From: Cenarchaeum sp. SB0675_bin_21
Lineage (GTDB): Archaea; Thermoproteota; Nitrososphaeria; Nitrososphaerales; Nitrosopumilaceae
DNA length: 46,584 bases
Assembly: GCA_009843815.1 (NCBI GenBank)
Contig: VYCS01000033.1
Location: forward strand, 1 to 46,584
Direction of reading: 5' to 3'
The notes beneath the pieces were generated by a model. It made no database searches and had not been told where the DNA came from. It saw only the letters and a program-made list of their open reading frames with translations. Every line of letters starts with the position of its first letter. The stretch's first letter is position 1. The translations under genes and the position numbers were made by a program. Below are positions 1,643 through 39,751 of the stretch, piece by piece.

Positions 1643-3130
1643 TAAAATACCGGATACTGAATGAATAAAAAATAAAAATCAGTTACGCGCCTTGGCAGCA
1701 GCTCGTATAATCGTGAGTATCTTGTTTACACCATCGACATGTATACCTGATGCCTCGCCTGGAGTCTGTCCGTCAGGCAGTCCCAGATGTGGCCTTACAT
1801 GGTTATGATACACCTTCAAACCGGCAAGCAGTGCTGCATCCTCCTTCTTCAAACCGCGTACAACCTTCTCGCGCAGCCGTATGGTATTTCCATTGAAAGA
1901 CTCCATCTGGTTGTTGTGTATATCGCCATCCATGCGTATGTGTGACTCATGCACAGAACTCTTCCACAGGTAGTTCTTGGGAGCGTACTCATCTTTGTGA
2001 GCCTCGGCAAAGTTAGATGCGCCATCAGATATCAGTTTGGATGGAGTTTTACCCGTTATGTCTTTTGCCTGCTTAAACATCGGTCTAACATCATCAGTAC
2101 CTTTGTGTGTGGCAACCTGTCTGGCAATCCAATATCTTGTCTCTGAATCCAGCATCGCGAACAGGTACTTTCGCTTCCCGCGTATCTTCATGTATATTTC
2201 GTCGGTACGCCACTCCTCGCCGACCAGTGGAGTTATCCCATCAAGATATTCATCCATCATATGGCCGTACTGTTCTGCCCAGCGATGTATGGTAGAGCGG
2301 CCAACCTTGCAGTATATTGAGTGTAGTGCCTTTACGGTCTTTCGTATAGACAGGCCGGCATATACCAGTTCTACAGCGACTGTAATGTACTCTGGGGCAG
2401 AACGCCGCCCCTCAAATCCAAGGTTGTCTGTAAAGTATTTGCCGCATGATTTGCATTGGAACCGGTGATTGCCGCTGCGCACCCCCTTCTGTATAATGTC
2501 GGATGAACCGCAGCGCAGACATAAAATCTGCCTTGGTTCTTCTATTACACGCCGTTCTCTATTGTTCCACTGTACGGCTTGGATATGCTTGCAGACTACA
2601 CCAGTATGCAGTTAATCTGGACAAGAGCACATCCAACCGTGTCCGAAATTTCGCACTTCGTATGATTCATCTCTACTCTGCGATTTTACAAGATAATGGT
2701 CTGGGGATATGCATTCAACTTGTCCGCCCATCTCATATATTAGATATCCCCTGTCGGCACGCGACTTTGCACCAAGATACTTTTCTAATGCATACGCGTG
2801 CTTGCAATATATCGCATCATCTGGACAGTTACAATCCCAACTACGGGATGTACGTACCAAAGTATACTTGACGCATGGTTCAGTCTGTGAACACACCTCG
2901 TACGTAGAATCATCTACTTGACGAATCTGATTCTTTTGTTTTGTTATCAATATACCTCTCTGTTTTCTGTAATTCATTTGTATGGTAGCGTATCGGTAGT
3001 ATTTAAGGCGGTAAAAGTTAATCTTGAGGCGTGAGAGCACATGTGAGCGTTGCGGTCATACGTGGACCATACAGAATGAGCTCTCGGTAACTGTCGTGGG
3101 TGTAATTCACCGTACTGGAACAAGCCTAGA
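1635..3130 (-). mobile_element. SWIM-DDE insertion sequence, decayed copy
   Basis: This is the same element as at 20.9-22.4 kb, in the opposite orientation. Homology between the copies extends upstream of the transposase through a shared leader to a common outer edge, GGCTTGTTCCAGTACGG (plus strand ...CAAGCCTAGA at 3130). The opposite ends match only over about seven bases (TCCAGGC / TCTAGGC), so the right boundary is approximate. The element carries one gene, broken by a stop codon. Confidence 0.7.
1679..2977 (-). pseudogene. SWIM zinc-finger DDE transposase, one nonsense codon
   Basis: The frame is continuous from an ATG at 2977 to 1679 (about 433 codons) except for one TAA at 2612-2614. 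The intact relative at 21043-22347 reads CPDHTHTG where this copy has CPD-stop-LHTG. Domains in order are: a first SWIM finger (CNCPD...CKH), a second SWIM finger (CSCPD...CKH, containing the stop), a CxxC zinc ribbon, a helix-turn-helix region, and a DDE core with WRTDE, LISDGASNF and MESFNG. The start is placed at MNYRKQRG because a TATA-like ATTTAAGG lies at 2999-3008 and the intact copy has the same arrangement. The two copies differ at many positions, so the duplication is not recent. Without readthrough the transposase is inactive. Confidence 0.85.
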
Positions 3131-4224: not shown

Positions 4225-7200
4225 TCAAAAACTATCCATACTCACCTGTTTTGGCTTCTCTTGCTTTATATCCATACCCTCAAATTTCTCTGGTAGATTC
4301 TCGATTATCCTGTCGGACTGTACGCCGATATATACAAGTCGTTCTATCATACCGCGCACCTCCTCGGACTTTACACCCTTCAATGGGTAGTTTGTTATGC
4401 CGGTTACGGGATCCTCCCTATATGAGTACCTTGATACCTGTACTATACCATTTGGTGCCGCGAACCATCCGATTGGAGTTAAACCGTTGACCTTGTAGTC
4501 TGTATGCGGGAGGTTGTCATATACTAATGTATCATCAAGATATAGTTTGGTTGCATCCCTTGTACCTGTGCCATCATTCTTCTTTTTGCCGAATGTTATC
4601 TTGCGCGGCGCGTCGGGTATTGGGTGTAAAGGTGCACCTAGGTCATATCGCGGTGTGACATCAGAGTCAAAATTCAGATGCATGTGTGCCAGTTCACGTC
4701 CAGCCGTACAAAATGCGTGAAAGTCTGGAGCCATTGGTATGTTTGGTATACCGCGCACCAAGAACGCCTGATATTTTTCTCGGAAGCCCGTATGATGTAG
4801 TATGCCGTATGTGTAGTAGAAGATGTCCTCTTTTGTGATGGTATCATCTTCATATGTTGTTCGGTATAGTTCGAGCGCCCAATCTGTAATATTGTCAATC
4901 ATTTCTCCATCACCTTCATCGGGAAGACTTGGCCGTGATGTACCACCTCCAGATCTGGCGTCATATTCGTTATGAAGACCGAGAACTCGCCCCTGATCTT
5001 GTCCGGTACTATTATTGCCAGATTCGCTTCTGGAGGAGTCTGGAGTCTGGAGTCTGGAGTCTGGAGTCTGGAGTCTGGAGTCTGGAGTCACACCCTGACG
5101 AACATTTTCACGGTTTTGTTTCTTTGCTTTTAGAGGGAAGGTTTGGGATGCCTCATGGATGTGCAAGTCAGGTGTGGTATTGGTCATCATGGTTGAGAAC
5201 TCGCCCCTGATTTTGTCAGGCACTAATATGGATGGGTTATTCGCTTCGCCTGTAGGATAGAATCTTGGAATCAATGCCGTATCGTTGGCAAATGCCTTGT
5301 CAAAATACAGATATTGTTTGAAGAATGGACGGAATAGTGCTTGTCGTATAAGATCATCATTGAATTGTAGTGGCGATGATTTTTTCATTGCTCTTGAGAG
5401 GTGTGGTGTCCACTGCACATGTTTTTCGTCTATCTTGAAGTCTGTAGGATCCTGAGTATTACAGTAGTCTATGGTTCGCTTCATATTAGATGTAAGTTGG
5501 CCTCTACTAGAGTTGTAAACCCAAGGGTCTCTGCGTGTTTTAAGTCCACTACAATACTGACTGAAGAGAATATTATCTTTTTTACCTCCCTTTCCAGCCC
5601 TACTACCCATTGGTGTAATATCGTCCCATTCATCAGCCAGTTCGCCGCGCTGGTTCAACCAGTCGTGATACTTGTCTGGAGATTTGGGCAGCCATGGAAC
5701 ATTAGACATATCCCCGAACCCGCGTATAATATCGAATTTCTGCTCGCGGGATAGATGGTCGCCAATATCGTGATAGCGTATGGTGCAACCTGTTTTGGAT
5801 GGGTTTTTGACTAGAATTACTATTGTAGTCGCCTCACGGGATCCACCACCAAAAATTTTCCCACCTTCTCTCCTCGACTGTTCTCCCCTAGTACCCTGCT
5901 GATTCCCACGCAGATTAAAACAATACACATCAGTAAACTCCTCTTTGATGCAAGCTCGTACACCCGCCTCCGCATTACCAGTAATCCATGCCGAGGGCAT
6001 GATAAAGCCGATTATCCCGGATTCGCCGATGCGGTCCGAGGCCCAACGGAGCGCTTTGAGATATGAATTATAGAGTGATCTCTTGTTACCCTTTGGTGCA
6101 TGTTTGATGTATGTATCTTTAACCAAACCCTCTAACTCAGGATGGCTGACGTTCTTGTTGTCATCATTGGCGGACTTTTGCCCCGCCGAATAAGGCGGAT
6201 TACCAATTATAACCTGTATACGCGCACTACGTTGCTCATCCCGCATCTGAAACACATCTTTGAAATCAGGATCAGTTATCTTTGTCTGCTCCAATGCCTC
6301 TGCCCTGCCCGAAGCCTTCAATTCCAGCCAGTTAGGACGCACAGTGAATGTATCCACATAACAACTTCGCTCAAACGGTTTATCCTCCCCCACTATCCGC
6401 GAATACGTGGTCTCTATATTCATACAGGCCGTATAATACGCCAATAGTTTATTCTCACCAAATCTAATATCCTTATACTTTGATTTCACTACATCTTTCG
6501 GCAACATATCAAGCAGTCTGGTAAGAAACACACCTGTACCTGCAAACGGGTCCAGTATGCTGATTTTCTTATCACCAAACCCGGCATTGAACTGCTCCTT
6601 CAATACATGTTGTATGGAATTTATGATGAAATCAACTATCACCACAGGTGTATACACGATGGTCTTGGCCTGCGCCCTGTCGAATGTCTGGAAGAAGTTT
6701 CCATATATCTTGTTTATGATGTTCTGTTTGGCAGCAGGGCTGTTGATATTTCCTATGTGGTATTTCATCAGTTTGTGCCACTCTTCCAACTCCTCCAATT
6801 CTACGTGAAAGTCCATCCGACCTACTGTATTATTAAAGGCCGTAATTACCGGATTGGTGGTCTCCCCGAACAATTCCCTGAATATAGGTTGTAGTACAAC
6901 ATGCTGCGCAACGGCCTGTATAGTATCACTGTACGTGACAGTATAGCCTACAGTTTCTTTGAGATTTTCGTGCAGGGTTTCTATATTCTGCTTGTATTTT
7001 GTATCTGCACGATTGGCCAGCCTCAATGCTACCACAGCCGCCCTCTCACCGAGTTTGCGCCCATATTCCTCCCAGTAAAACCCAGTGTCTAGTAATGTAG
7101 CCGGCAACACATCAAAGATTGGTCGGATTGTGGGTGGTATGTCTATCATGTTCTCTATTTTATCCCTTGATGGCTTTTCACCCGGTTCTAGAACAAGTGA

Positions 7201-8991
7201 TGCTTGGTTGAAGAATTTGTCGATTCGGTCATCATGTGCGCGTAATGCTTCTAATACCTGTAGTATCAGTTTATTTGCCTTTGATTTGTCTGCACTACTC
7301 GATATTGCCTCGTTCTTTGACACTACCACCGGTACAATAACATATCCCATCTTTTTGCTTGGATGCGTTCGTATTACGCGCCCTACTGCCTGTACCACAT
7401 CCACCACACTCTGTCGCGGCTCATAAAACACCACACCATCCAAAGACGGTACATCCACACCCTCTGACAGACATCTGACATTAGACAATACATGTACTGT
7501 ATCCTCGGAGGTATTCTCAAGCCAGTTTATGCTTTTCACTCTGTCCTTGGCACGGTCTTTTCCATCTACATGTTGTGTATCTACATGTATGGTTTGGTTG
7601 TTGCGTTCATTCTCAATATCCACAACCTTCTTGAATGCCTTGATGAATCTCTTTGAGTTTGGTATCTTGTTGTGGAACACCAGTATGCGGTTTAAAAGAT
7701 TGGGCGGTTCGTCTACATCCTGCTGTTTAATGGCGCTATATACAGACGCTAACTTACACTCCTCCTCAAGTGGTATCTCAGAGTCAATATCGGCATCGAC
7801 ATTCTTTTTATCCTCCTCATCCGCATCTATTGCAAGTCCAACCACCTGATATTCAGTCAATATACCATCGGTAATAGCCTTGGAGAAAGGTAGTTTGTGA
7901 AACTCCGGACCAAATATCTCCTTATCATTCATGGAGAATACATTGTCTCCCTCCAGTTCATACACGCGAGGTGTGGCGGTCATGTAAAGGCGCTTTCTGG
8001 CACTGATATTCTCATCATCATGCGCCAGTGTAAATGCCTTCTTCCCACTACCGGCCGTGCGATGTGCCTCATCGAATATGATAAGATCAAACACTACATC
8101 GTGGAATGCCTCCTGAACTACATCGGCAGACTGATACGTGGAGAATATTACACGCATTGACTTTTTATCATTCTTCAGTTTTTGGAAGTTATTCCTTAAT
8201 TTATTGGGATCAGTAGTGACGATACCACTGGTCAGACCTGTTATCGATATATCTTCAGGGTTACCCGCAGTCTTATCAGAACACACAATAATGGTCTGCT
8301 GTGGTATGTTGAAATTTTCGGCCCATGCATTATACGTCTGTTTGATGAGGGATATTGAAGGCACTAAATACAGTACGGTCTTGTCCTTGCCTACCATCTC
8401 TTCGGCAATGCGGAGAGATGTAAGCGTTTTACCTGTCCCACATGCCATTATGAGCTGGCCACGTGAGTTATTTTGGAATCCCCGTATTACTTTATTGTAT
8501 GCGGTTTCCTGGTATGGGCGTAGTGGAAGTGTGGCATTCTGTGTTATCTTCTTTGGGTCTATATCCCACTTTATCTTTGAGGTTTCCAGATCAGTACGCC
8601 GTATGATGGTAACACCCGTCTCTGCGCACTGCTTAACCAAAGTTTTTGTAGGTTCACCAGTAGTTACAATGATCCTGTTTTTGATGTTTTTTACCTCCGA
8701 CTCAACCCAGAGATTGGTAACATTTCCCTCGTAATGCAGGGAGGTGCCATCAGCCAGGAATTTACACTGTATGGCGTAAGGTTCTCCAAACCCATCATAC
8801 GCTATAATGTCTATGCCACGATCCTTCTCTATAGGAACACGGCGAACTTCTTTGAAATGTGCATACTGCCTATCTTTGCTGAAAAACTCTACCATGAGTA
8901 GCTCGAATAGATCGCCGAGTTTCTTGGCCTCTCCACCTGAAATCTTTCGTATGTGATTTAGTACATCACCAAAGGTAGTTGCATCTGACAC
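4225..8991 (-). CDS. Type ISP single-chain restriction-modification enzyme
   Basis: The 1588-residue protein has the order and length of LlaBIII-like Type ISP enzymes. First is an Mrr-like PD-(D/E)xK nuclease (D61 in RGIDIIA, Q75-C-K77). Next is an SF2 helicase/translocase with Walker A MACGTGKT at 182-189 and DEAH at 307-310. Then comes an N6-adenine methyltransferase with DPFAGTG near 810 and NPPY near 931, followed by a C-terminal target-recognition region (NITDWALELY, KEDIFYYTYGILHH). The enzyme would methylate host DNA and cleave unmodified DNA from one polypeptide. The start is a GTG 26 nt below a TATA box, so leaderless. Around residues 1301-1360 the gene carries a seven-base tandem repeat and an out-of-frame copy of the preceding coding segment (annotated separately). 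Currently the frame is open throughout. Confidence 0.9.
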   Translation of the reverse strand: MSDATTFGDVLNHIRKISGGEAKKLGDLFELLMVEFFSKDRQYAHFKEVRRVPIEKDRGIDIIAYDGFGEPYAIQCKFLADGTSLHYEGNVTNLWVESEVKNIKNRIIVTTGEPTKTLVKQCAETGVTIIRRTDLETSKIKWDIDPKKITQNATLPLRPYQETAYNKVIRGFQNNSRGQLIMACGTGKTLTSLRIAEEMVGKDKTVLYLVPSISLIKQTYNAWAENFNIPQQTIIVCSDKTAGNPEDISITGLTSGIVTTDPNKLRNNFQKLKNDKKSMRVIFSTYQSADVVQEAFHDVVFDLIIFDEAHRTAGSGKKAFTLAHDDENISARKRLYMTATPRVYELEGDNVFSMNDKEIFGPEFHKLPFSKAITDGILTEYQVVGLAIDADEEDKKNVDADIDSEIPLEEECKLASVYSAIKQQDVDEPPNLLNRILVFHNKIPNSKRFIKAFKKVVDIENERNNQTIHVDTQHVDGKDRAKDRVKSINWLENTSEDTVHVLSNVRCLSEGVDVPSLDGVVFYEPRQSVVDVVQAVGRVIRTHPSKKMGYVIVPVVVSKNEAISSSADKSKANKLILQVLEALRAHDDRIDKFFNQASLVLEPGEKPSRDKIENMIDIPPTIRPIFDVLPATLLDTGFYWEEYGRKLGERAAVVALRLANRADTKYKQNIETLHENLKETVGYTVTYSDTIQAVAQHVVLQPIFRELFGETTNPVITAFNNTVGRMDFHVELEELEEWHKLMKYHIGNINSPAAKQNIINKIYGNFFQTFDRAQAKTIVYTPVVIVDFIINSIQHVLKEQFNAGFGDKKISILDPFAGTGVFLTRLLDMLPKDVVKSKYKDIRFGENKLLAYYTACMNIETTYSRIVGEDKPFERSCYVDTFTVRPNWLELKASGRAEALEQTKITDPDFKDVFQMRDEQRSARIQVIIGNPPYSAGQKSANDDNKNVSHPELEGLVKDTYIKHAPKGNKRSLYNSYLKALRWASDRIGESGIIGFIMPSAWITGNAEAGVRACIKEEFTDVYCFNLRGNQQGTRGEQSRREGGKIFGGGSREATTIVILVKNPSKTGCTIRYHDIGDHLSREQKFDIIRGFGDMSNVPWLPKSPDKYHDWLNQRGELADEWDDITPMGSRAGKGGKKDNILFSQYCSGLKTRRDPWVYNSSRGQLTSNMKRTIDYCNTQDPTDFKIDEKHVQWTPHLSRAMKKSSPLQFNDDLIRQALFRPFFKQYLYFDKAFANDTALIPRFYPTGEANNPSILVPDKIRGEFSTMMTNTTPDLHIHEASQTFPLKAKKQNRENVRQGVTPDSRLQTPDSRLQTPDSSRSESGNNSTGQDQGRVLGLHNEYDARSGGGTSRPSLPDEGDGEMIDNITDWALELYRTTYEDDTITKEDIFYYTYGILHHTGFREKYQAFLVRGIPNIPMAPDFHAFCTAGRELAHMHLNFDSDVTPRYDLGAPLHPIPDAPRKITFGKKKNDGTGTRDATKLYLDDTLVYDNLPHTDYKVNGLTPIGWFAAPNGIVQVSRYSYREDPVTGITNYPLKGVKSEEVRGMIERLVYIGVQSDRIIENLPEKFEGMDIKQEKPKQVSMDSF
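4918..5252 (-). repeat. Diverged tandem duplication inside the Type ISP gene, second copy out of frame
   Basis: Copy A (about 5141-5252) encodes EANNPSILVPDKIRGEFS in frame. Copy B (about 4918-5033), after the heptamer tract, encodes EANLAIIVPDKIRGEFS, but in a different frame from the one used by the full-length protein. Read in its own frame, copy B ends at a TGA next to the codons for MIDNITDW. In the full-length frame it is read as low-complexity glycine/serine/asparagine sequence. The copies share roughly 60% of residues by eye, so B may be a recombined allele rather than a recent slip. Confidence 0.8.
5035..5089 (-). repeat. Heptanucleotide tandem repeat in the Type ISP coding region
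   Basis: Seven perfect GGAGTCT units start at 5035 and are followed by a six-base partial unit ending at 5089. On the coding strand they give the peptide cycle TPDSRLQ. Because seven is not a multiple of three, gain or loss of one unit shifts the reading frame of the remaining C-terminal region. Confidence 0.97.
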
Positions 8992-9693: not shown

Positions 9694-9898
9694 TATAACT
9701 CAGGATACGGAGTTCTGTATGAGGGTCAGTGCTATTCTAGCCTAATTACAATCTTCAACATTCAGAAGACGATGATTTTTTTAAGCATAGAACGCCATAG
9801 TGATGTGTGAGGCGATGTAATCTTAATAACGTATGTGGTCTAAAAATGAATGTCATAGTCTGTAGTATGGCGCATGTATCCAAATATCGGATGTGATC

Positions 9899-10447
9899 AT
9901 GGTGTCGTATAGAAATAGATATGCAGATGTGAGGAATGTTTTATCGCGTACTATGTTTTTTGCAGTAGCCTTTATCCCACTGTGGCTCATACTGTCAATT
10001 AATGGTTGCATTGCAGGAATATGGAATTACGAAATTACAATTATCTGTATCACCCTCATTATAGCATTGACCATTTTTGTAAAGCATTACATAAAAAAAC
10101 TGTCTGGCACTAAAAAAGGAAATTACTTCAAAGTGGAAAAAAGAGATGACATAACACTTGGTATGGCATTCTATATACTGGCCTACACACCAGTGTTGTT
10201 TATAGACAAATTCGCGCTTTCCGAGATGGTCACATTTGGAATCCTACTATCCACCATCTACCTTGTATATGTGAAAGCAAACCTCATACACGTCAATCCA
10301 ATACTAGTTATGATGGGCTATAAGACATACCGGGTAACCGATGAGCATTCCAACACCGTCGTACTACTGTCACGCCTGAATGTCCGAATTCATACCGAGG
10401 TAAAATATGTAGAGATTACTCCCAACATAAATCTGGTTTTAGACTAA
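9899..10447 (+). CDS. kwaA: KwaA-like membrane protein of a Kiwa anti-phage system
   Basis: A membrane protein of about 182 residues with four predicted hydrophobic segments (roughly residues 17-37, 42-62, 85-104 and 108-130) ends in a soluble tail. After the last helix comes NPILVMMGYKTYRV, which fits the conserved NP-L--GY--Y-V stretch of KwaA as I remember it. The gene directly downstream is a DUF4868/KwaB-like protein, the known partner. In Kiwa, KwaA senses phage action at the membrane and KwaB acts on DNA (family knowledge). ATG at 9899 is preferred over the in-frame GTG at 9893, but no clear TATA box decides it. Confidence 0.72.
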   Translation: MVSYRNRYADVRNVLSRTMFFAVAFIPLWLILSINGCIAGIWNYEITIICITLIIALTIFVKHYIKKLSGTKKGNYFKVEKRDDITLGMAFYILAYTPVLFIDKFALSEMVTFGILLSTIYLVYVKANLIHVNPILVMMGYKTYRVTDEHSNTVVLLSRLNVRIHTEVKYVEITPNINLVLD

Positions 10448-10515
10448 CAGCAATAATCATATACGATGGTAGTTGTGTCATTTTATTGTCACCACAGCGA
10501 GAATATGAACAGATG

Positions 10516-11472
10516 AGAAAAAATGTTGATCTAGGAGACATACTTCCAATGGGATTTCTGTTGAAAAAGAATAGACATGGTAGGTATTTAGATGCATATA
10601 GAATGAAGCCGATTAAAATAGACTATTTCACAGAGAAGCTAAAGTCAACATTGGATACGGTACATGAGAGGTACGAGAATAGAGAGATCAGATTCGAACA
10701 TATGCATGAGGACACTGATGATGATGCAGTAGTAATACTAGACGTTGATGATTATCAGACAATAAGGCATACAATTGAAGGGATATTCCGGCATGCAGAC
10801 GCTAACCCGTTGGACAGCTTAAAAAGTATGAAAAATGTTAAGTTTTCTGCCATGTTGTTCGATATACAGAACGACAGTGCCGTGATCACCATAGACTCTG
10901 TCAGCGTATTCTCTAAAGCCTTTTTTGAGAAAGGGGGTTTTGTGGCCACGTATGATGACAAGTTCGTAGATGAGTTCAAAAAAGATTCGGTACTAGCATT
11001 TGAGTACGGGCTACCCTGCATTTATTTTGAAAAGGAACGCAAACTACTGGTATTGGACAGAAACAAAACAGAGGAGATTTTCAATCTCATAGAGTATTAC
11101 AAAAAGAATGCAGAAACAAAATTTCAGGAATTGGTTGACAGTGGCATAATTGAAGTTGCCGATGATATTTTAAATTCTGAGTTAAGAGGTATTACAGTTG
11201 CGCGTCAAGTTAACAACATGATCAAAGCAAATGCATTCACTAGAGATATTGACTATTATAAAAAATATGAAGAGAAAAGTTCGGATTTTGACGACAATAG
11301 AACAAAAATAACCATTAGAAACAACAAAGTGATTATAAATGATAAAGATGATTTTCGTTCTTTCCTACACATAACAAAAGATGATATTTTGGAATCCATA
11401 GTGGATTCGGACCAAAAGTTTCTTTCATATAAAAAACGCCCAATTACGCGCAGAACTGGTAAATCTACGTGA
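10516..11472 (+). CDS. kwaB: KwaB-like (DUF4868) effector of a Kiwa anti-phage system
   Basis: This soluble protein of 318 residues matches the layout of DUF4868/KwaB: an N-terminal alpha/beta half with DDDAVVILDVDDY, a central FSAMLFDIQNDSAVITID strand pair, and a C-terminal DNA-contacting half ending in a basic tail (KKRPITRRTGK). The longer frame starts at a TTG at 10486. I chose the ATG at 10516 because a TATA-like TTTTATTG lies about 32 nt upstream of it. It follows kwaA by 68 bp on the same strand, consistent with a two-gene Kiwa module. Codon use is AT-rich like KwaA and unlike the GC-richer nuclease gene that follows, suggesting separate acquisitions. Confidence 0.75.
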   Translation, partial: RKNVDLGDILPMGFLLKKNRHGRYLDAYRMKPIKIDYFTEKLKSTLDTVHERYENREIRFEHMHEDTDDDAVVILDVDDYQTIRHTIEGIFRHADANPLDSLKSMKNVKFSAMLFDIQNDSAVITIDSVSVFSKAFFEKGGFVATYDDKFVDEFKKDSVLAFEYGLPCIYFEKERKLLVLDRNKTEEIFNLIEYYKKNAETKFQELVDSGIIEVADDILNSELRGITVARQVNNMIKANAFTRDIDYYKKYEEKSSDFDDNRTKITIRNNKVIINDKDDFRSFLHITKDDILESIVDSDQKFLSYKKRPITRRTGKST

Positions 11473-11898: not shown

Positions 11899-11944
11899 CC
11901 CAACAACACAATCAATAAAAACCCGAATGCCATAAATGGCGCCA

Positions 11945-13294
11945 ATGGCAAGAGGACACCGTTCCGGCGATACACACAACACTCGGATGTTCGAGTTGTC
12001 GGCCGAATCCACTCTGGATGAGTTGAGCGATTATGCATTTGATAACGAAGACCAGATGCACAGGTTGATCGAAGCCAACATTGAGAAACTGTTTCCCGAC
12101 CTGACATTCCTAACAAGAGAGTTCAGAGAGATGGCCGGAGGCGAACTTCGCCCCGACACCGTCGCGTTTGACACAGACCTGAACACGTTCGTTGCCTTAG
12201 AGTACAAAAACAAACGTAACGCAGGGGCAGTAGACCAGGCTAGGACTTACCTGGACTCCATGGAGACGCACAAGGCGGATCTCGTGTTACTGTACAAAAA
12301 AAAGGAGGATAGTTCGCGCCAAAAGAATTCCTTTGATTGGGGAAAAATGTACGCGATCATAATGGCACCGGAATTCGGCGACTACCAGATCCTCGGAGCG
12401 AAGAAGGACTCCACGGTGGAGTTATACAAGATACGGAGGTATGGTAAGCACGTGATGCTGATGGCGCGTGTGGGTGGCGGCCACGTTCGAACCCACACCA
12501 CTGCGCGGTCAGTGCCCGCGACAAAGCGCAAAAAACCCACCCCCGATACCAACAGGCCGGCTACGGTACCAAGGCCGAACCGCCCAGATGGTGATGTCAA
12601 ACTGCCCGACATAGAAGACGCGACTGGTATGAGACATCCTAAGGAGTTGACATGTCCGGATGGTAGCAGAGTAGACCTGAAATCATGGGTGGACATGTTG
12701 TCTGGCGTGGCCAACTGGCTAGTCAGCAAAGATCACCTTAATGAGTCGCATTGTCCGGTGCAGACAGGTCCAAAAAACGCCATACTCCATACTCAACCAA
12801 TCCATCAGAACGGAAGGGCTTTTACTGCCAAAAGAGAGGTGGGCAAACTCTTTCTTAACACGGATCTAGGTTCTACCAACGCCCGAATACAACAATCTAT
12901 AAGTTTGATAAATCGTGCAGGACTCGACCCGTCTGGTTTTGTGTTGTCCTTTAGCGATTCCGTACGGCCGGTTAGATCGCACACATCACCAGTGTGCGTA
13001 ACCATCACCAAATGGTCTTCGGTGCCCGGTAGCAAGGAGGCGGACAGGTACTATGTTCCACACATGGTTACCGTGGATGTTGGCGGAGAGGTAGTTTGGA
13101 CGAACGACGATGTGACCGCGCATACTGTTACCAGCGGCGTGTTAACGGATGGAGGGCCGGACGGCATGTTCGACAGTGGTTTGTTCGCACCTAGGACCAA
13201 GTTCTCCCATATCTTTGAGAAAGCGGGCGAGTATCCGTATTTTGATAGAGTTCACCCATGGATGCAAGGCGTGGTGAAAGTCAAGGGTGTGTAA
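11945..13294 (+). CDS. PD-(D/E)xK nuclease-like protein fused to a cysteine-free cupredoxin domain
   Basis: The 449-residue protein has three parts. Residues 15-175 resemble NucS/DUF5655-type PD-(D/E)xK domains: D71 in RPDTVAFD, then E86-Y-K88 in ALEYKNK. Residues about 220-340 form an unrecognised middle domain (PDGSRVDLKSW, then RIQQSISLINRAGLDPSGF). Residues 360-449 are a cupredoxin closely similar to that of the secreted protein at 26126: VGGEVVWTND, TSGVLTDGGPDGMFDSGLF and VHPWMQG. H393, H437 and M440 are kept, but the copper-ligand cysteine is D434, and the two cysteines that frame the domain start in the secreted copy are S363 and Y369. There is no signal peptide, so it should be cytosolic. 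ATG at 11945 lies 28 nt below AATAAAA; 11936 is the alternative start. The gene is GC-richer than its neighbours. Confidence 0.75.
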   Translation: MARGHRSGDTHNTRMFELSAESTLDELSDYAFDNEDQMHRLIEANIEKLFPDLTFLTREFREMAGGELRPDTVAFDTDLNTFVALEYKNKRNAGAVDQARTYLDSMETHKADLVLLYKKKEDSSRQKNSFDWGKMYAIIMAPEFGDYQILGAKKDSTVELYKIRRYGKHVMLMARVGGGHVRTHTTARSVPATKRKKPTPDTNRPATVPRPNRPDGDVKLPDIEDATGMRHPKELTCPDGSRVDLKSWVDMLSGVANWLVSKDHLNESHCPVQTGPKNAILHTQPIHQNGRAFTAKREVGKLFLNTDLGSTNARIQQSISLINRAGLDPSGFVLSFSDSVRPVRSHTSPVCVTITKWSSVPGSKEADRYYVPHMVTVDVGGEVVWTNDDVTAHTVTSGVLTDGGPDGMFDSGLFAPRTKFSHIFEKAGEYPYFDRVHPWMQGVVKVKGV

Positions 13295-15118: not shown

Positions 15119-16954
15119 CTACGCCGAACCACTCTGTAGTTGCGTATAATATGGGTATGTTACGGCAAAATGGCCAGAACCGTTAACGTTTGGTTGAAGG
15201 TATTTGCGTTCTTCGAGATATGTTCGTTCATCATCATCCAGTTTTTGATAAAGTAATTTTGTCTTTTCACCCATTTCTTCGTGTGGATGATCTCTTTCAA
15301 CCGCTTCATACTTTTTACGGATAGAAATCAGGTATGGGTCGTTTCTCTCTTCAATGATTTTATTCTGAATTTCAGCGAGAATTGGGTTTTGCTGTTGTAT
15401 GTGGTTACTCTGATCAGGTTTTGCTTGTTTTTCAAAATTCAATACCCGTATTGGTACGACGAATGGTTGATGTGATGTCCACATGTAGCTCTTACCAGGT
15501 ATTGGTTCACTCAGTATTTGAGTTATTATATCATCAGAATAATGTGCGTTTGATTTGGAAAGTGCCGCAAGGTCTGTCTTACTCAGCAGATGAAATACAA
15601 AAAAGTTGTCTCCCTGACTTACTATTTCGGTTGGAATGCTGCCAGGTTGTTGTGTTATGAATATGCCACCCAGTCCATACTTTCTGCCTTCCTTGGCAAG
15701 CTCCACGAAAGCTGAAGGTGCCTGCGTGGTGCCCGACAATACCGTATGTGCCTCCTCAAGGACAAACGTGGCGCGGATGAGCCTCTCACCACCATGCTTT
15801 ATGAAGTTATCCCGGTTTTCGTTGAAGATGTGACGTACTATTATGGAAGACACATCAAGCGCTGCTTGCGGCCCAATTCTTGATATGTCAAATATTACTA
15901 CATGTCCCGCCTTGAGTGCCCGTGTTACTATATCTATGGTATCGGAATTGTTGTCGTGTAGTTCTCTTATCGGTCTGACCAAATTGTTCAGAATTGGGCG
16001 CGCCTCATCTGATGACATAGATGCGCTTTCTCCAACAACCAGCTTACGTACATCCTCCGTCTCGGCTCCCCAACCGTCACGTCTCAGCAAGTCGACCAGC
16101 TTGGACCAATTCTCTTGTTTCATGGCCATAAGTTTATGAAAGAATACGTTGGTATGTTTGTCTGGATTTACTAAAATTGGCACTATGAGACTGTGTGATA
16201 GTTGCGCTAGGTTCAATTTGACTAAACGGTACACATTTTTTAGTACTGGGTCGACATTTTGATTTGTAAGCAGTATGGCTTCCCGTTTGTCCATCACTCC
16301 TGGCCGGCCTTTCTTATCGGTCGTTGCGTACTCTCCATCTGCATCAAACACGAGCAGCCCACCGTTCTTAGCATCCCATTTACTACAGATTATCTTCATC
16401 AGGTTGCTTTTGCCATATCCGGCTCGGGCAAAGATGAATGACCTTTTGGAGTTCATCTCACTCTGGTCAAATAGTATATCTATAGTTGGCTCCAAATCAT
16501 AATGTCCTATGTCACTACCTCCCGACTGTGTAGACATGGCCTGTTGTATGATGTTCTTTGTATCCTCCAAGTCAGGAATTGATACCTTACTGGTAATGTG
16601 AGGAATCTTTTTCAGTCCAGGTGAAAACTTACTGTCTTTAAATGCTCCAAGAACCTTAATCTTGACATTGTAGCTTATCTTATTTTGTTTTATGTCGGAA
16701 CCTATTTCATCAATTCCACCCTGAGCCGCCATATCACTCAACCACTTTGTACCCATTGCAGATGTCATTTCACCCCGTGGTTGGTAGTCAATCACCCGAA
16801 CCACTATATCACTGCCAACACCATGAATCAGAAGCAGGCTTCCTATGTTTAGAGCAAAATCCTGCCTGTATGGCGCTATGAGTGATGCGATATATTCATA
16901 GGAAGAGCTAGACAGGCCCATAAATATACCAATTATGTTATTATCGTTCATCAT
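15119..16954 (-). CDS. herA: HerA-family hexameric DNA translocase
   Basis: The 611-residue protein is a HerA/FtsK-clade ATPase. It has an N-terminal HAS-barrel-like region (residues about 5-120), Walker A ARAGYGKSN at about 177-184, LVFDADGEY just after it, Walker B VLEEAHTVL near 399-407, and TQQPGSIPTEIVSQ, the conserved glutamine/arginine-finger stretch. HerA pumps DNA as a hexamer and pairs with the NurA nuclease. The start is set at 16954 because its ATG overlaps the TGA of the upstream nurA-like gene (ATGA). The frame could begin 18 nt earlier. It is the last gene of a three-gene operon with DUF4338 and NurA-like genes. Archaeal housekeeping herA-nurA usually sits with mre11-rad50. Here the setting is a defence island, so this is probably a dedicated copy. 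Confidence 0.85.
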   Translation of the reverse strand: MMNDNNIIGIFMGLSSSSYEYIASLIAPYRQDFALNIGSLLLIHGVGSDIVVRVIDYQPRGEMTSAMGTKWLSDMAAQGGIDEIGSDIKQNKISYNVKIKVLGAFKDSKFSPGLKKIPHITSKVSIPDLEDTKNIIQQAMSTQSGGSDIGHYDLEPTIDILFDQSEMNSKRSFIFARAGYGKSNLMKIICSKWDAKNGGLLVFDADGEYATTDKKGRPGVMDKREAILLTNQNVDPVLKNVYRLVKLNLAQLSHSLIVPILVNPDKHTNVFFHKLMAMKQENWSKLVDLLRRDGWGAETEDVRKLVVGESASMSSDEARPILNNLVRPIRELHDNNSDTIDIVTRALKAGHVVIFDISRIGPQAALDVSSIIVRHIFNENRDNFIKHGGERLIRATFVLEEAHTVLSGTTQAPSAFVELAKEGRKYGLGGIFITQQPGSIPTEIVSQGDNFFVFHLLSKTDLAALSKSNAHYSDDIITQILSEPIPGKSYMWTSHQPFVVPIRVLNFEKQAKPDQSNHIQQQNPILAEIQNKIIEERNDPYLISIRKKYEAVERDHPHEEMGEKTKLLYQKLDDDERTYLEERKYLQPNVNGSGHFAVTYPYYTQLQSGSA

Positions 16955-18108
16955 GCTCGGCCCCCCAGCCATCCCTTGTCTAGGTTGTCTGCTTGCATCG
17001 CTTGGTCCCGGATATAATCACTTAGCACTGGATCTGAGTTCTGGCGCAGCTTCTCGATTATTCTGTCTCGCGTTATGGATGTGGGAAATCCTTGCTGTAC
17101 GGCATATTCATGTGCCCGCATCAATGTCTGTGGATAGCCTATGTTTGGGTATGAGGTACGGGAGTCTTTTGCCAAATAACTTATGATATTCATCACGTCA
17201 TCCTTGGAGTAGATGTCTTTATCAATCATGCTTGGAATCTCTATCGTAACTAGGAGGTTTTTCTGCCGTGACAGTTTGGCAATATACAGGTCGCCAAATG
17301 AGTAATCAAGTGGTTTATTTTCATCGGGTTTAAGTAGTCCGTGTCCGCTCCATGTATATGCACGCCGCTCTACATCAAGCGGTATCTTAACATAGCCTAT
17401 GTGGTCGGTTGGGAACACCTTTTCGCACACCAATGCAGCCTGTAGAAGAAACAGAATTTTAGATGTTTTGGCAACGCCCACCATCCAAACATGGTCCTTT
17501 TTGGTGAGTAGATTTTCCTTTAATTTACCGATGAGTTCAGCCTTTATCTTTTTTGTTCGCAATAATCTATCCCGCATTATGAGTGTCTTGTCATCTGTTT
17601 GTGCGGTCTGCACCTTGTCAAACATACAGGCAAATTCACCAATCTCCATCAAAGTATCTCTACGTGTCAGAATCTCTGAAATTTTTAGCAGTTCAGTCTT
17701 ATCCAGAAGGTCCAGAAAATTACGGATCACAGGTTCACGTTCAAATGGTTCGATGATCTTCTTCAACTCGTCATCATTACCCATATCTCCACTGGGTGAC
17801 GCAAACTCTAGTTTTCTATTACCGTTGGAGTCGGCTACAGACACAATGTCGAATTCAAACGGGTCAAAGTTGAGACTGAACATGCCACCATCAAACGCCT
17901 TAAAAGAGACAGACTCATAAGAGCCTCCTGGATCGAGTGGCACAAACTCTAACTCTTTCACAACATTGCGTAACTCCTGCATCTTCTTCTGCTGGTTTAC
18001 CATCAATTCGGATAGGTTCGTGATACGGTCTATATCTTGTGGAGATTGCAAAACGTTTTGTATTTCCGCCCAATAGTTAAAAACATTTGTTGGTTCTACT
18101 CTAGACAC
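16951..18108 (-). CDS. NurA-like nuclease, partner of HerA
   Basis: The 385-residue protein has NurA landmarks in order. KAFDGGMF (D73) is the first metal-binding aspartate. LIMRDRLLR (D179) sits where NurA has its second acidic motif, although the usual DG is DR here. MVGVAKTSKI (209-217) matches the 'GvsK.s' motif, and NIGYPQTLMRAHEYA (321-335) matches the C-terminal 'GYPypL..AH' motif. It is a little longer than many NurA proteins because of an N-terminal coiled segment. The start is a GTG at 18108 preceded by GGTGA at Shine-Dalgarno distance. It overlaps the DUF4338 gene by 13 bp and the herA start by 4 bp. I am fairly sure of NurA; the D-to-DR change should be checked in a structure. Confidence 0.7.
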   Translation of the reverse strand: MSRVEPTNVFNYWAEIQNVLQSPQDIDRITNLSELMVNQQKKMQELRNVVKELEFVPLDPGGSYESVSFKAFDGGMFSLNFDPFEFDIVSVADSNGNRKLEFASPSGDMGNDDELKKIIEPFEREPVIRNFLDLLDKTELLKISEILTRRDTLMEIGEFACMFDKVQTAQTDDKTLIMRDRLLRTKKIKAELIGKLKENLLTKKDHVWMVGVAKTSKILFLLQAALVCEKVFPTDHIGYVKIPLDVERRAYTWSGHGLLKPDENKPLDYSFGDLYIAKLSRQKNLLVTIEIPSMIDKDIYSKDDVMNIISYLAKDSRTSYPNIGYPQTLMRAHEYAVQQGFPTSITRDRIIEKLRQNSDPVLSDYIRDQAMQADNLDKGWLGGRA

Positions 18109-19232
18109 TGTCTCACCTTATCAAAAAATGGTTCTGCTTTAAAACGACACCATGAGTTAGTCCGTTTACTTCTTGGTAGACACCACCTTTCCTGCCAAAA
18201 CTGTACGATATCATCGAATGGGCGACTATGCCATGATGGTCGTTCCCCATGTTGTATTACATTGTGAAGGTTTTGTGCCAAAGGAAATAGGTATATCTCA
18301 CGCCTGACACCATGTTTAGAGAACCCAATCAAACCGAGGTGGGTAAGACCGCGTTTCAGTAATTGCATCTTGCGCGACGGACCATGTCCGTATCCCGATG
18401 TTGTATCCACACCATTTTTTTTCAACATATCATATATCTCCCGCACCATATAGTCTGGGATGTGAAAGGAACCATTGCCGGCTGTTTGTCCCACAGATAT
18501 TACTGCCTTCTCACCATGGTATTTGAGTCGGTCATATATGCTGGACTTACCGAATGCGCCAGTCGTAGTAATAAACAACATGCGTGGCTCAAGTATGCGG
18601 TTCTCAATAATTGTACTCCTATTCTTGTACTTTTCTGCGTAATGTTGTCGTACCTCGTTTGAGGTCATGGCCAGTGCCACCATCTTACCACCAATGAGTT
18701 CATTATACGGTGGGAGAGCACCCACACGTTGGGCGGACATGGATTGGTTTACCCAAATGTCTATATTTTTTCCCGTAAGACCCAAATATTCATCACGGGC
18801 TCTCATCTTCAGTATAGGACTCTGTAGTAGGAACATACCGAACGGTACATCATGATGCCTGTCCCACAACATGTATCGTATACGTCTACCATAACTTGCC
18901 TGATACGGCATACTCCACCACATCAGGTTCCACCACAGGAATAGATCCGATTCGAATGAGCTGGATTCAACACATCGTAACTCAAGATCTATCTTTCTAG
19001 GATCCAGATCGCGCCCATCAAGTCCATACTTTCTGGCCTTGTCAGTAAATTTTGAAAGGAATTTGTGGTGTTCTTGTATTTGTGCTTGTTTGGCACTCAC
19101 CTGTATACTCCTGTATGTCTCTCTGGTGTGACTGGCTAACCGCAGGTGTGGATTTACTTTAAAACCACTACCAGTCACCAACTTTAATATTCTGTTGCGG
19201 AGTTTCTGTTCCTCACTTGTCAGTTGTGCCAT
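18096..19232 (-). CDS. DUF4338 (Druantia DruA-like) protein
   Basis: The 378-residue protein fits the DUF4338 family, to which DruA of Druantia belongs. It has RDEYLGLTGKNIDIWVN, then a mid-protein RVGALPPYNELIGGKMVALA, then an EKY-N-STII segment, and LFITTTGAFGKSSIYDRL. The last two follow the family's 'YN.l.GGKl.al' and 'TTs..g.SS.Y.Rl' patterns. The biochemical role of DruA is not settled. It is the promoter-proximal gene of an operon with NurA-like and HerA proteins, with both junctions overlapping. This combination is not one of the Druantia types I know, which use the DruE helicase. The start at 19232 lies 26 nt below a TATA box. Confidence 0.6.
   Translation of the reverse strand: MAQLTSEEQKLRNRILKLVTGSGFKVNPHLRLASHTRETYRSIQVSAKQAQIQEHHKFLSKFTDKARKYGLDGRDLDPRKIDLELRCVESSSFESDLFLWWNLMWWSMPYQASYGRRIRYMLWDRHHDVPFGMFLLQSPILKMRARDEYLGLTGKNIDIWVNQSMSAQRVGALPPYNELIGGKMVALAMTSNEVRQHYAEKYKNRSTIIENRILEPRMLFITTTGAFGKSSIYDRLKYHGEKAVISVGQTAGNGSFHIPDYMVREIYDMLKKNGVDTTSGYGHGPSRKMQLLKRGLTHLGLIGFSKHGVRREIYLFPLAQNLHNVIQHGERPSWHSRPFDDIVQFWQERWCLPRSKRTNSWCRFKAEPFFDKVRQCLE
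18113..18118 (-). promoter_or_regulatory. Shine-Dalgarno site deciding the nurA-like start
   Basis: The minus strand reads AGGTGA six bases before the GTG at 18108. An internal operon gene would be expected to use a Shine-Dalgarno site rather than leaderless initiation. Confidence 0.55.
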
Positions 19233-19252: not shown

Positions 19253-19263
19253 GGTTATAAAGC
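19253..19263 (-). promoter_or_regulatory. TATA box for the DUF4338-NurA-HerA operon
   Basis: The minus strand reads GCTTTATAACC, centred 26 nt upstream of the ATG at 19232. No other promoter is evident before the next two overlapping genes, so all three are probably one transcript. Confidence 0.6.
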
Positions 19264-20737: not shown

Positions 20738-21042
20738 TAGTCGGCAGCGACGACAATAAAAAACAAACACCACTTCTTTTTTCCAATTCCATGATTATGA
20801 GGTTTGCAAGGAGTGATATCAGTCCCAGCCCAAACCAACGTTTCCCCGGCATGCAAAGTCCAATAAAACATGCCATGTTATCTAGTCCTAGGCTTGTTCC
20901 AGTACGGTGAGTTACATCCCCGACAGTTACCTGGCAGTTCATTCTGTGTAGTCCGTGTATGGTCACAACGTTCACAGGCGTACTTCCTTACCTCAAGATT
21001 GACTTTTACCGCCTTAAATACTGCCGATTACATACAATACAA
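20738..21042. other. Gap and left end of the second SWIM-DDE element
   Basis: From about 20887 the sequence is the leader of the insertion sequence, homologous to 2978-3130 on the other strand. Before that I see nothing. Confidence 0.5.
21012..21021 (+). promoter_or_regulatory. TATA box of the SWIM-DDE transposase
   Basis: CCTTAAATAC is centred 26 nt before the ATG at 21043 and is conserved in the other copy. It shows that the 28 upstream codons of the open frame are leader, not protein. Confidence 0.6.
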
Positions 21043-22347
21043 ATGAATTATAGACAACAAAGAGGTATTCTAATAAGCAAAACAAAGGACCAGATACGTC
21101 GTATAGACGCGGACACGTACGAGGTGTGGTCACAGACTACACCGGATGTGAGATATACGCTGAGGCGTACCGCGGCCGGCTGGGATTGTTCGTGTCCGGA
21201 TACTATACAACATTACTGCAAACATGCGTATGCGGTAGAACACAGGCTTGGCATGAAGGCACGCGCCGACCGAGGCATGTTGATACATCAGTCCAAAGAC
21301 CAGGTGGAACGTCTTGCATCAGACCATTATCTGGTACGTTCCCAGAGTGGCAATGGCACATACGAGGTACGCGACTTTGGACACGGTTGGATGTGTTCGT
21401 GTCCGGATCATACACATACGGGCTCCATCTGTAAACACATACAAGCCGTACAGTGGCATATGGGCGAGCGGCGTACGATAAGACCACACGATGACACGCA
21501 CTGTAAGTTCTGTGACTCTACAAATATTGTAAAGAAGGGTTATTGCCGTGGAAAACAACAGTACGGCTGTAAGACATGTGGCAGGCGATTCATACAGAAC
21601 TTGGGCTTTGAGATGAAGCACACAACACCAGAGCATATCTGCACAGCAGTGGACTTGTTGTACAGTGGACTATCATCACGAAAGGTAGCCGTACGGTTGA
21701 AGTTAGAAGGCATCCAGATAACATATAGAACTGTACAGAATTGGGGTGCCACATATGGTAAACTGATGGAGGAGTATGTAGAAACAATATGCCCACAAGT
21801 TGGTGAGGAGTGGCGCACTGATGAGTTGCACCTCAAAATAAAGGGTAAGAAGCGATACTTGTTTGCAATGTTAGATAGCGATACACGATACTGGATTGCG
21901 CAGATGGTCGCTACCCATAAAGGAAATGATGATGTCGCACCGATGTTTATGAAGGCAAAAGAAGTGTCCGGTAAGGTGCCTGCCACTCTCATATCTGATG
22001 GAGCATCCAACTTTCATCATGCGTGGAAGTCCCAATACAAGGCAAAAAACCCTCTATACAAGGATACCAGGCATATCAACGAGGTTGCGTTTGACGGCAT
22101 CCACCACAACAACAAGATGGAGTCGTTCAATGGAAATACGTTACGTCACCGTGAGAAGGTGACACGCGGTCTCAAAAAAGAGGATTCCGGCATACTCACT
22201 GGCTTGCAGATATACCACAACTTTATACGGCCGCATTTGGGACTGCCAGATGGCCAGACACCGGCAGAGGCTGCTGGCATATACGTACAAGGTATGGACA
22301 AGTGGAAGACTTTGATACAGGCAGCTGCCAAGGCCAAGCGGGAATAA
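21043..22347 (+). CDS. DDE transposase with two N-terminal SWIM zinc fingers
   Basis: The 434-residue protein has two SWIM fingers (WDCSCPD...CKHAYA and WMCSCPD...CKHIQA, each CxCxnCxH) within the first 150 residues. A zinc ribbon follows (CKFCDS...CKTCGRRF), then a helix-turn-helix, then an RNase H-like DDE core: D in WRTDELHLK, D in LISDGASNF, E in MESFNGNT. The C-terminus HNFIRPHLGLPDGQTPAEA is like IS6/IS240-type DDE transposases. All catalytic residues are present, so the element may be active. SWIM fingers also occur in eukaryotic Mutator-like transposases. I do not know whether this archaeal fusion has been described. Confidence 0.85.
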   Translation: MNYRQQRGILISKTKDQIRRIDADTYEVWSQTTPDVRYTLRRTAAGWDCSCPDTIQHYCKHAYAVEHRLGMKARADRGMLIHQSKDQVERLASDHYLVRSQSGNGTYEVRDFGHGWMCSCPDHTHTGSICKHIQAVQWHMGERRTIRPHDDTHCKFCDSTNIVKKGYCRGKQQYGCKTCGRRFIQNLGFEMKHTTPEHICTAVDLLYSGLSSRKVAVRLKLEGIQITYRTVQNWGATYGKLMEEYVETICPQVGEEWRTDELHLKIKGKKRYLFAMLDSDTRYWIAQMVATHKGNDDVAPMFMKAKEVSGKVPATLISDGASNFHHAWKSQYKAKNPLYKDTRHINEVAFDGIHHNNKMESFNGNTLRHREKVTRGLKKEDSGILTGLQIYHNFIRPHLGLPDGQTPAEAAGIYVQGMDKWKTLIQAAAKAKRE

Positions 22348-36976: not shown

Positions 36977-38065
36977 CTAGGCCGGAATCAGATCTCGTAA
37001 CCTGTTTCGTATGCTTGCGGTGTCAGATGCCAGATCCACGGTGACAAAGCGGAGTTTGTGCCCTTGTATTGTCGCCGATTCATCATAATCGATTCCCACC
37101 GATGGGTACAGAAGCATTCCAGTGGAAGTCATAGACAGATCGTCGCCGTCGTGTTCCTGAGATCTCAGATACGAGTATATCTGGTATATGTTCTGGCTTT
37201 TCAATGTTTCACGGTGCCACTGCGCTGTGATTTCTGTAAATTTGGTATCAATGATTATTCGATGCGATTTGTCCGATTTTTCAACAATGATGTCAGTCTT
37301 CATTTCAGGCAGGATTTCTTTTATTCTGTGAGTGTGTGGTTCGGCAGGCCACTCAAACCGCTTGCCCCGATGTACTTGCCATTTATCGAGCACTATGCTG
37401 TAAAAACCACCCACGGCCCTTTCAAATAGATATCTTACCCAATTCTCCTTGCTCCTGTCAGGTAAAACCACATCCAAATACCCTGATTCTTCTGTAGGTA
37501 TTCTAAGATCCCATGCCAGCTGTGCAGCAGCAATCATTTTTGCATCATCCTTACCGTATCCTGTGTTTCTAGTGTTGACTGCATACTGTCTTGCATCAAA
37601 CAGATTGGAAACTCCGTACCTTGCAAATGTGGCGGCATCTATGCGGCAGCGCTGCTTGAGATTCTCATCAACGACGATCGCACTCAATCGATTCAGTGCC
37701 GCTATGACGAACCTGTTTCTTGGAATGTCTACGGTAAACTCATCAAAACTGCATGCTATCTTGCCCTGGTGGAGTAGGTGTCGGCGTTTTGTACGGATGT
37801 GGTTGATACGTCCCCTAACACGGGTCAAGTCGGCCTGTCTGAGCTGCAATTCATAGGTGAGCATGCGCCGTAGACGCCACTCTACCTCTACAGTTAAAAT
37901 TTCTGCAACCAGATCTGGAATTTTGTCTGGATTTTGCTCTGCATCCAGTCTTTTTTCGGGCATGTCCCGCAGCTTTTTGTAAAGATCCGACGCATACAAC
38001 ATTAGCAGCCACAGGTTTCGAACCGGGATCTTGCCAATGGTTTTTGTGTTTGACTGTTCGCTCAA
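36977..38065 (-). CDS. mcrC: McrC-like subunit of a Type IV restriction system
   Basis: The 362-residue protein has the McrC layout: an N-terminal region starting with IPVRNLWLLMLYASDL, a central helical part (LTRVRGRINHIRTKRR, IPRNRFVIAALNRL), and a PD-(D/E)xK nuclease fold near the C-terminus (EMKTDIIVEKSDKSHRIIID followed by TKF). McrC stimulates the McrB motor and supplies the nuclease that cuts modified DNA. The frame starts at a TTG at 38065 that overlaps the mcrB stop (TTGA), so the two are translationally coupled. All catalytic residues expected of the fold appear present. Confidence 0.85.
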   Translation of the reverse strand: MSEQSNTKTIGKIPVRNLWLLMLYASDLYKKLRDMPEKRLDAEQNPDKIPDLVAEILTVEVEWRLRRMLTYELQLRQADLTRVRGRINHIRTKRRHLLHQGKIACSFDEFTVDIPRNRFVIAALNRLSAIVVDENLKQRCRIDAATFARYGVSNLFDARQYAVNTRNTGYGKDDAKMIAAAQLAWDLRIPTEESGYLDVVLPDRSKENWVRYLFERAVGGFYSIVLDKWQVHRGKRFEWPAEPHTHRIKEILPEMKTDIIVEKSDKSHRIIIDTKFTEITAQWHRETLKSQNIYQIYSYLRSQEHDGDDLSMTSTGMLLYPSVGIDYDESATIQGHKLRFVTVDLASDTASIRNRLRDLIPA

Positions 38066-39732: not shown

Positions 39733-39751
39733 GGCTATTTGCACAATGCGT

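Follow-up and report, generated by a model that had tools for sequence, protein, structure and literature searches.

The window analysed here, i.e., the whole stretch of 46,584 nucleotides of contig VYCS01000033.1 from Cenarchaeum sp. SB0675_bin_21, carries an operon that links a protein of the family of Druantia DruA (DUF4338) to a NurA-like nuclease and a HerA translocase. This raised the question of whether the three genes constitute an undescribed defence system, as an initial annotation of the DNA had suggested, and, if so, what DruA contributes to it.

The operon and its surroundings

The operon comprises the following features.

19255–19261, minus strand: TATA-like box TTTATAA, from a box search upstream of druA, with its centre 26 nt upstream of the DruA ATG
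19232–18096, minus strand: druA (378 aa, full length)
18108–16951, minus strand: nurA-like gene (385 aa, GTG start)
16954–15119, minus strand: herA (611 aa from the ATG at 16954; 617 aa from the ATG at 16972)

The whole operon spans 15119–19232 on the minus strand. According to the ORF coordinates, druA and nurA overlap by 13 bp and nurA and herA by 4 bp; the start ATG of herA sits within the stop of nurA (ATGA), and the alternative ATG at 16972 adds 6 aa. The spacing of 26 nt between the centre of TTTATAA and the druA ATG is presumably that of a leaderless archaeal promoter. Direct reading of the sequence bore out the overlaps and the preceding TATA box, both of which had been noted in the initial annotation.

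The assignment of the first protein to DUF4338 was confirmed by matches to PF14236 (Pfam, E = 2.1e-64) and, over nearly the full length, to the PADLOC DruA1 profile (E = 1.9e-79). The protein is about 30% identical to Druantia homologues, and its gene is the only druA in the genome (1.61 Mb, 99.6% complete). The third gene was likewise found to encode a HerA translocase, as proposed: it matched PF01935 (Pfam, E = 3.3e-15) and the PADLOC HerA profile, and its Walker A (AGYGKS), Walker B-like (FVLEEAH), and GRKYG motifs are intact. Its profile matched TdpA best among the PDB proteins (E = 2e-32). The middle protein scored 17.4 bits against the NurA family PF09376 (E = 0.0034), which is under the curated cut-off of 21. 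Despite this score, its family profile matched TdpB as the sole PDB protein (E = 1.6e-8), and hhalign aligned it with housekeeping NurAs with the motifs in register (E = 2.6e-5, 75% probability). The motifs are FDGG (from residue 72), EIGEF (155), RDRLLR (179), VGVAK (210), and GYPQ...RAHE (324–334), and the D/E/D/K/AH catalytic positions correspond to those of the housekeeping NurAs (pattern D-E-D-K-(Y/A)H). These profiles and motifs mark the middle protein as a divergent NurA, in agreement with its first description as NurA-like. Its predicted model was of low confidence (pLDDT 37).

The AlphaFold2 model of DruA was of high confidence (pLDDT 91.7). Its best PDB fold matches were nearly all GNATs, each of them weak (best E = 0.076, none below 0.001), and the DruA sequence gave no significant match when compared with solved PDB proteins. 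A GNAT-like fold has been assigned to DUF4338 (PMC10853773). The model of DruA thus looks like a GNAT-like (acyltransferase) fold.

The following defence genes were identified on the same contig.

4225–8991, minus strand: type ISP restriction-modification enzyme (PF18135, E = 2e-62; PADLOC)
9893–10447, plus strand: KwaA of Kiwa (PADLOC, E = 1e-14)
10486–11472, plus strand: KwaB of Kiwa (PADLOC, E = 1.3e-6; PF16162)
11936–13294: PDC-S18-like gene (N-terminal half)
36977–38065, minus strand: McrC (PF10117, E = 1.4e-19)
38062–39744, minus strand: McrB (AAA_5, E = 3e-25)

The operon therefore lies in a defence island, as had been described. It is also away from mre11-rad50, again as stated before: a complete housekeeping nurA-herA-mre11-rad50 operon is present on another contig of the genome (G000:C21, L023). 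Since this operon is kept elsewhere, the NurA-HerA of the window is an extra, distant second pair.

Several features of the island were observed in passing. The Kiwa pair (9893–11472) occurs here in an archaeal genome. The single ORF at 11936–13294 fuses its PDC-S18-like half to a second half that, by eye, is an apparent cupredoxin domain. A tandem-repeat scan of the window yielded four short arrays, one of which (5035–5089) consists of eight copies of the 7-bp unit GGAGTCT within the ORF of the type ISP enzyme; as the unit is not a multiple of three, phase variation of the enzyme is suggested. A DDE transposase with a SWIM zinc-finger region is encoded at 20959–22347, and a second copy, split across frames as judged by eye from the translations, at 1679–3040.

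Recurrence of the gene trio

A total of 84,980 species genomes (GTDB) were scanned for DruA, the best 80 of 96 DruA loci were kept, and their ORFs were compared by homology with the Druantia type I partners, HerA, and NurA. Among these best 80 loci, 70 carried Druantia type I partners (DruB/C/D/E-type), seven carried HerA and/or a NurA-like gene (L046, L047, L048, L078, L102, L116, and L118), and three carried neither (L053, L069, and L113); none of the 80 had both partner sets. The hosts of the seven loci were Chloroflexota, Bacillota, an unclassified bacterium, and a micrarchaeon. Together with L128, from another class of Thermoproteota, they indicate that the trio recurs in other neighbourhoods.

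The genes druA, nurA, and herA are neighbours in the window, and likewise in L046, L047, L048, L116, L118, and L128. The order DruA-NurA-HerA was found in L046 and L047, in both of which Pfam recognised NurA (over the cut-off in L046 only). L048 is close to L047, and its NurA ORF seems shortened in the ORF call. The middle gene of L116 is related to the NurA of the window (E = 7e-19). In L118 and L128, DruA is tail to tail with the NurA-HerA pair, and the herA ORF of L128 is split. L078 is a partial case, as the contig stops inside the NurA gene, and L102 is a weaker one, with a weak NurA match of unsure identity.

Within the archaeal phylum the trio is rare. Within the order and phylum, relatives of the window NurA were detected in the genome that carries the window, in G273, and in G277 (three of 300 genomes), besides a weak match in G357. 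The NurA-HerA genes of G273 and G277 are the nearest relatives (55–59% identical); they are without DruA, lie beside a V-ATPase subunit gene, and contain frame breaks, and may be decaying or badly assembled. In two related genomes (L014 and L015), a broken nurA, accompanied in L015 by a broken herA, was seen between V-ATPase subunit and rhodanese genes. NurA-HerA pairs of type 2 without DruA were found in L130 and L131, and many genomes of the order carry two or more NurA-HerA pairs. One pair of the same genus, which differs from that of the window, lies inside a restriction-modification cluster (L024, G084:C148, 2088–9161), where genes for a cytosine methylase, NurA (610 aa), HerA, an Eco57I-type methylase, and a BsuBI/PstI endonuclease stand in a row.

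DruA was found on three viral contigs, one of which (L043) has Druantia type I partners and none of which has a NurA or HerA match; no relative of the window NurA or HerA was detectable on viral contigs, and none of the NurA on plasmids. Weak DruA matches in G019, G207, G288, and G339 were not counted, since the best reached 34.3 bits and the others stayed below the cut-off; the contig in G019 has a viral appearance.

The DruAs linked to NurA-HerA group together in the DruA tree, outside the main Druantia type I clade; 0 of 500 shuffles gave so low a value. The window DruA grouped with the examples from Chloroflexota and a single Xanthomonas DruA from a different context (support 100/99), in a tree whose long branches leave the exact placement unsure. 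In the HerA tree, the window grouped with G277 and L116 (support 96/98), while L046, L047, L118, and L128 formed a separate clade (100/100) with the DruA-less L130 and L131. The HerA of L102 probably represents a third DruA-linked clade, and the housekeeping HerA fell in a different clade from the window HerA. The DruA closest to that of the window is the one in L128 (46.6% identical); identity is 37.9% to that of L046 and 29.4% to that of L116. DruA is thus nearer to L128 and L046, but HerA groups with L116, indicating that the two genes have different histories. On these trees, DruA was combined with NurA-HerA modules on two or more occasions, or its partners were swapped. Such repeated joining is strong evidence of a functional link, beyond what a single conserved operon would give.

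DruA was also seen in other company. On two haloarchaeal plasmids (L008:5969–14974 and L134:4639–12645), a longer DruA is followed by SspF- and SspG-like genes; L008 also has an SspH-like gene, the counterpart of which in L134 is annotated as an FtsK translocase. The SspF/SspG/SspH module belongs to phosphorothioate defence. In three loci (L128:7520–13712, L113:7713–12727, and L069:7941–14003), DruA is found with a CARF6-like protein and with a fusion of a kinase to an ORC/CDC6-like ATPase, which Pfam detected in L128 and L113 and which was seen by eye in L069; L128 and L069 each carry a third, uncharacterised gene in addition. In L128, NurA-HerA and this set both flank one DruA. The occurrence of DruA with the Druantia type I set or with the kinase-ATPase-CARF set means that it is not tied to a single mechanism. 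These contexts suggest that DruA may be a shared discriminator coupled to various effectors.

Relationship to known systems

The window DruA belongs to the same family as that of Druantia type I (DruABCDE), whereas DruB, DruC, DruD, and DruE are not next to it and NurA and HerA are found instead. No DruE was detected in the operon or in the large ORFs of the window that were scanned, and when a 1807-aa DruE was searched against the genome, the only match was a weak one, to a helicase-like frame of 891 aa. Plain membership in Druantia was rejected for want of DruE, which places the operon outside Druantia by the current definition. The same holds for type III (DruH-DruE; PMC8565338) and type IV (DruE-DruF-DruL; PMC13316683), both of which contain DruE, unlike the operon.

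By sequence profile, the solved proteins closest to the window NurA and HerA are TdpB and TdpA. Tdp is a phosphorothioate-linked antiphage system of Thermus, in which TdpAB is the restriction half and TdpC the modification enzyme; its PDB entry is 8wet, and An et al. (2025) is cited as its reference. The operon differs in that DruA stands in place of TdpC and no sulfur-inserting gene is adjacent. In a comparison made with the general PAPS-reductase family, no such gene lay beside the operon. The sole member of this family in the genome is on another contig (C22), in a frame of 240 aa that scores 157 bits against the family, and looks like an ordinary sulfur-assimilation enzyme.

The window pair shares its motor and nuclease families and the nurA-herA gene order with the housekeeping archaeal HerA-NurA, which is a separate copy flanked by mre11-rad50; the window pair is without these genes. 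HerA-DUF4297 and HerA-Sir2 likewise combine a HerA ring with an effector in defence, but the effector of the window is NurA and DruA is added as a third component. HerA-effector pairs are known to function in antiphage defence (PMC11291478), of which the trio may be a new variant. Our literature search on DUF4338/DruA in combination with HerA/NurA turned up no account of the trio, in line with the earlier remark that no system joining them was known.

Possible function of DruA with NurA-HerA

Considering these results, we propose that the operon encodes an antiviral system that degrades DNA, in which DruA makes the self/non-self decision, likeliest by marking or protecting host DNA; we put the probability of this reading at roughly 0.55. 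The HerA ring would thread double-stranded DNA, with ATP, into NurA, and the nuclease would cut up the threaded DNA. Archaeal NurA-HerA has been reported to pump and digest duplex DNA (PMC12977600). DruA, with its putative GNAT fold, would decide which DNA is spared, possibly by marking or protecting host DNA and so filling the place of TdpC beside TdpAB. The association of the three genes is well established, and we infer that HerA, NurA, and DruA form a complex that degrades foreign DNA with DruA as the discriminator. That DruA discriminates by modifying DNA is speculative, and any chemistry assigned to it is a guess.

The proposal draws support from the recurrence of the trio, its exclusion of Druantia type I partners, and its repeated joining, and also from the kinship with TdpAB, the GNAT-like model of DruA, the SspFGH-like neighbours, the restriction-modification cluster of L024, and the separate housekeeping operon. 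The weakness of the GNAT matches, the pairs without DruA (G273/G277 and L130/L131), and the other partners of DruA counted against it. Both tests that the initial annotation had set for itself, the profile search and the neighbourhood search, spoke for the undescribed defence system that it had raised as a possibility, through the firm DUF4338 identity and the recurrence, with defence as its inferred part.

A more specific form of this proposal is that DruA is a DNA-modifying acyltransferase like Mom of phage Mu, the trio then resembling restriction-modification: the DNA mark would be new, and HerA-NurA would act as the shredder on the restriction side. Enzymes of the Mom family have a GNAT fold and modify DNA bases (PMC7824862). 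We regard this form as rather unlikely; if it held, the same mark would serve Druantia type I and the SspFGH-like modules too. In the literature searched, no mechanism for DruA in Druantia type I was found, and the three-gene system is small enough for a direct test of its role. If DruA marks DNA, several defence families would be united under one self-marking idea.

Among the alternatives, it is possible, albeit doubtful, that the operon acts in defence with DruA as a sensor or switch and no DNA marking. DruA would acetylate or bind a protein, or recognise an infection intermediate, and thereby release a NurA-HerA killer that may degrade host DNA too. DUF4297-HerA, which degrades the DNA of phage and host alike and has to be tightly controlled (PMC11291478), offers a precedent, and the presence of DruA beside machinery as different as the Druantia type I and kinase-ATPase-CARF sets fits a general sensor or adaptor. 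Against this, the closest motor-nuclease kin, TdpAB, come from a modification-based system, and DruA also accompanies SspFGH-like genes.

It seems improbable that the genes form a second DNA end-resection or repair pair with an accessory factor and no defence role. NurA-HerA is the classic archaeal repair pair (PMC5715905), and the presence of two or more such pairs in many genomes of the order would suit this idea. However, the genome retains a complete nurA-herA-mre11-rad50 operon, and the window pair belongs to another HerA clade, has a patchy distribution (3/300 genomes), and is apparently decaying in two relatives. The operon also lies inside a defence island and is tied to a defence gene family.

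Given that no solved proteins are closer than TdpB and TdpA, the operon might also be a divergent Tdp system with its modification enzyme elsewhere in the genome and DruA as a bystander. We consider this very improbable, because the only PAPS-reductase-family gene is on another contig and appears to serve sulfur assimilation, and the association of DruA with at least two NurA-HerA lineages makes a bystander role unlikely. It is scarcely credible that the genes are adjacent by chance or travel as a mobile-element module with no joint function: the contig is rich in transposases, and in G767 a DruA-like gene adjoins an IS66-like transposase, but the association is found in several phyla, the genes overlap or abut, a number of loci share the same order, and a rough estimate gave well below one chance case per 80 loci against the seven observed.

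In addition, the DruA model was compared with viral models, and good matches were obtained to a phage fragment and to three proteins from giant viruses. The three DruA-like folds (BFVD entries A0A3G4ZXG3, A0A5K0UAJ3, and A0A3G4ZRA1) come from Faunusvirus, Yasminevirus, and Dasosvirus, with E values from 2.6e-15 to 4.8e-8.
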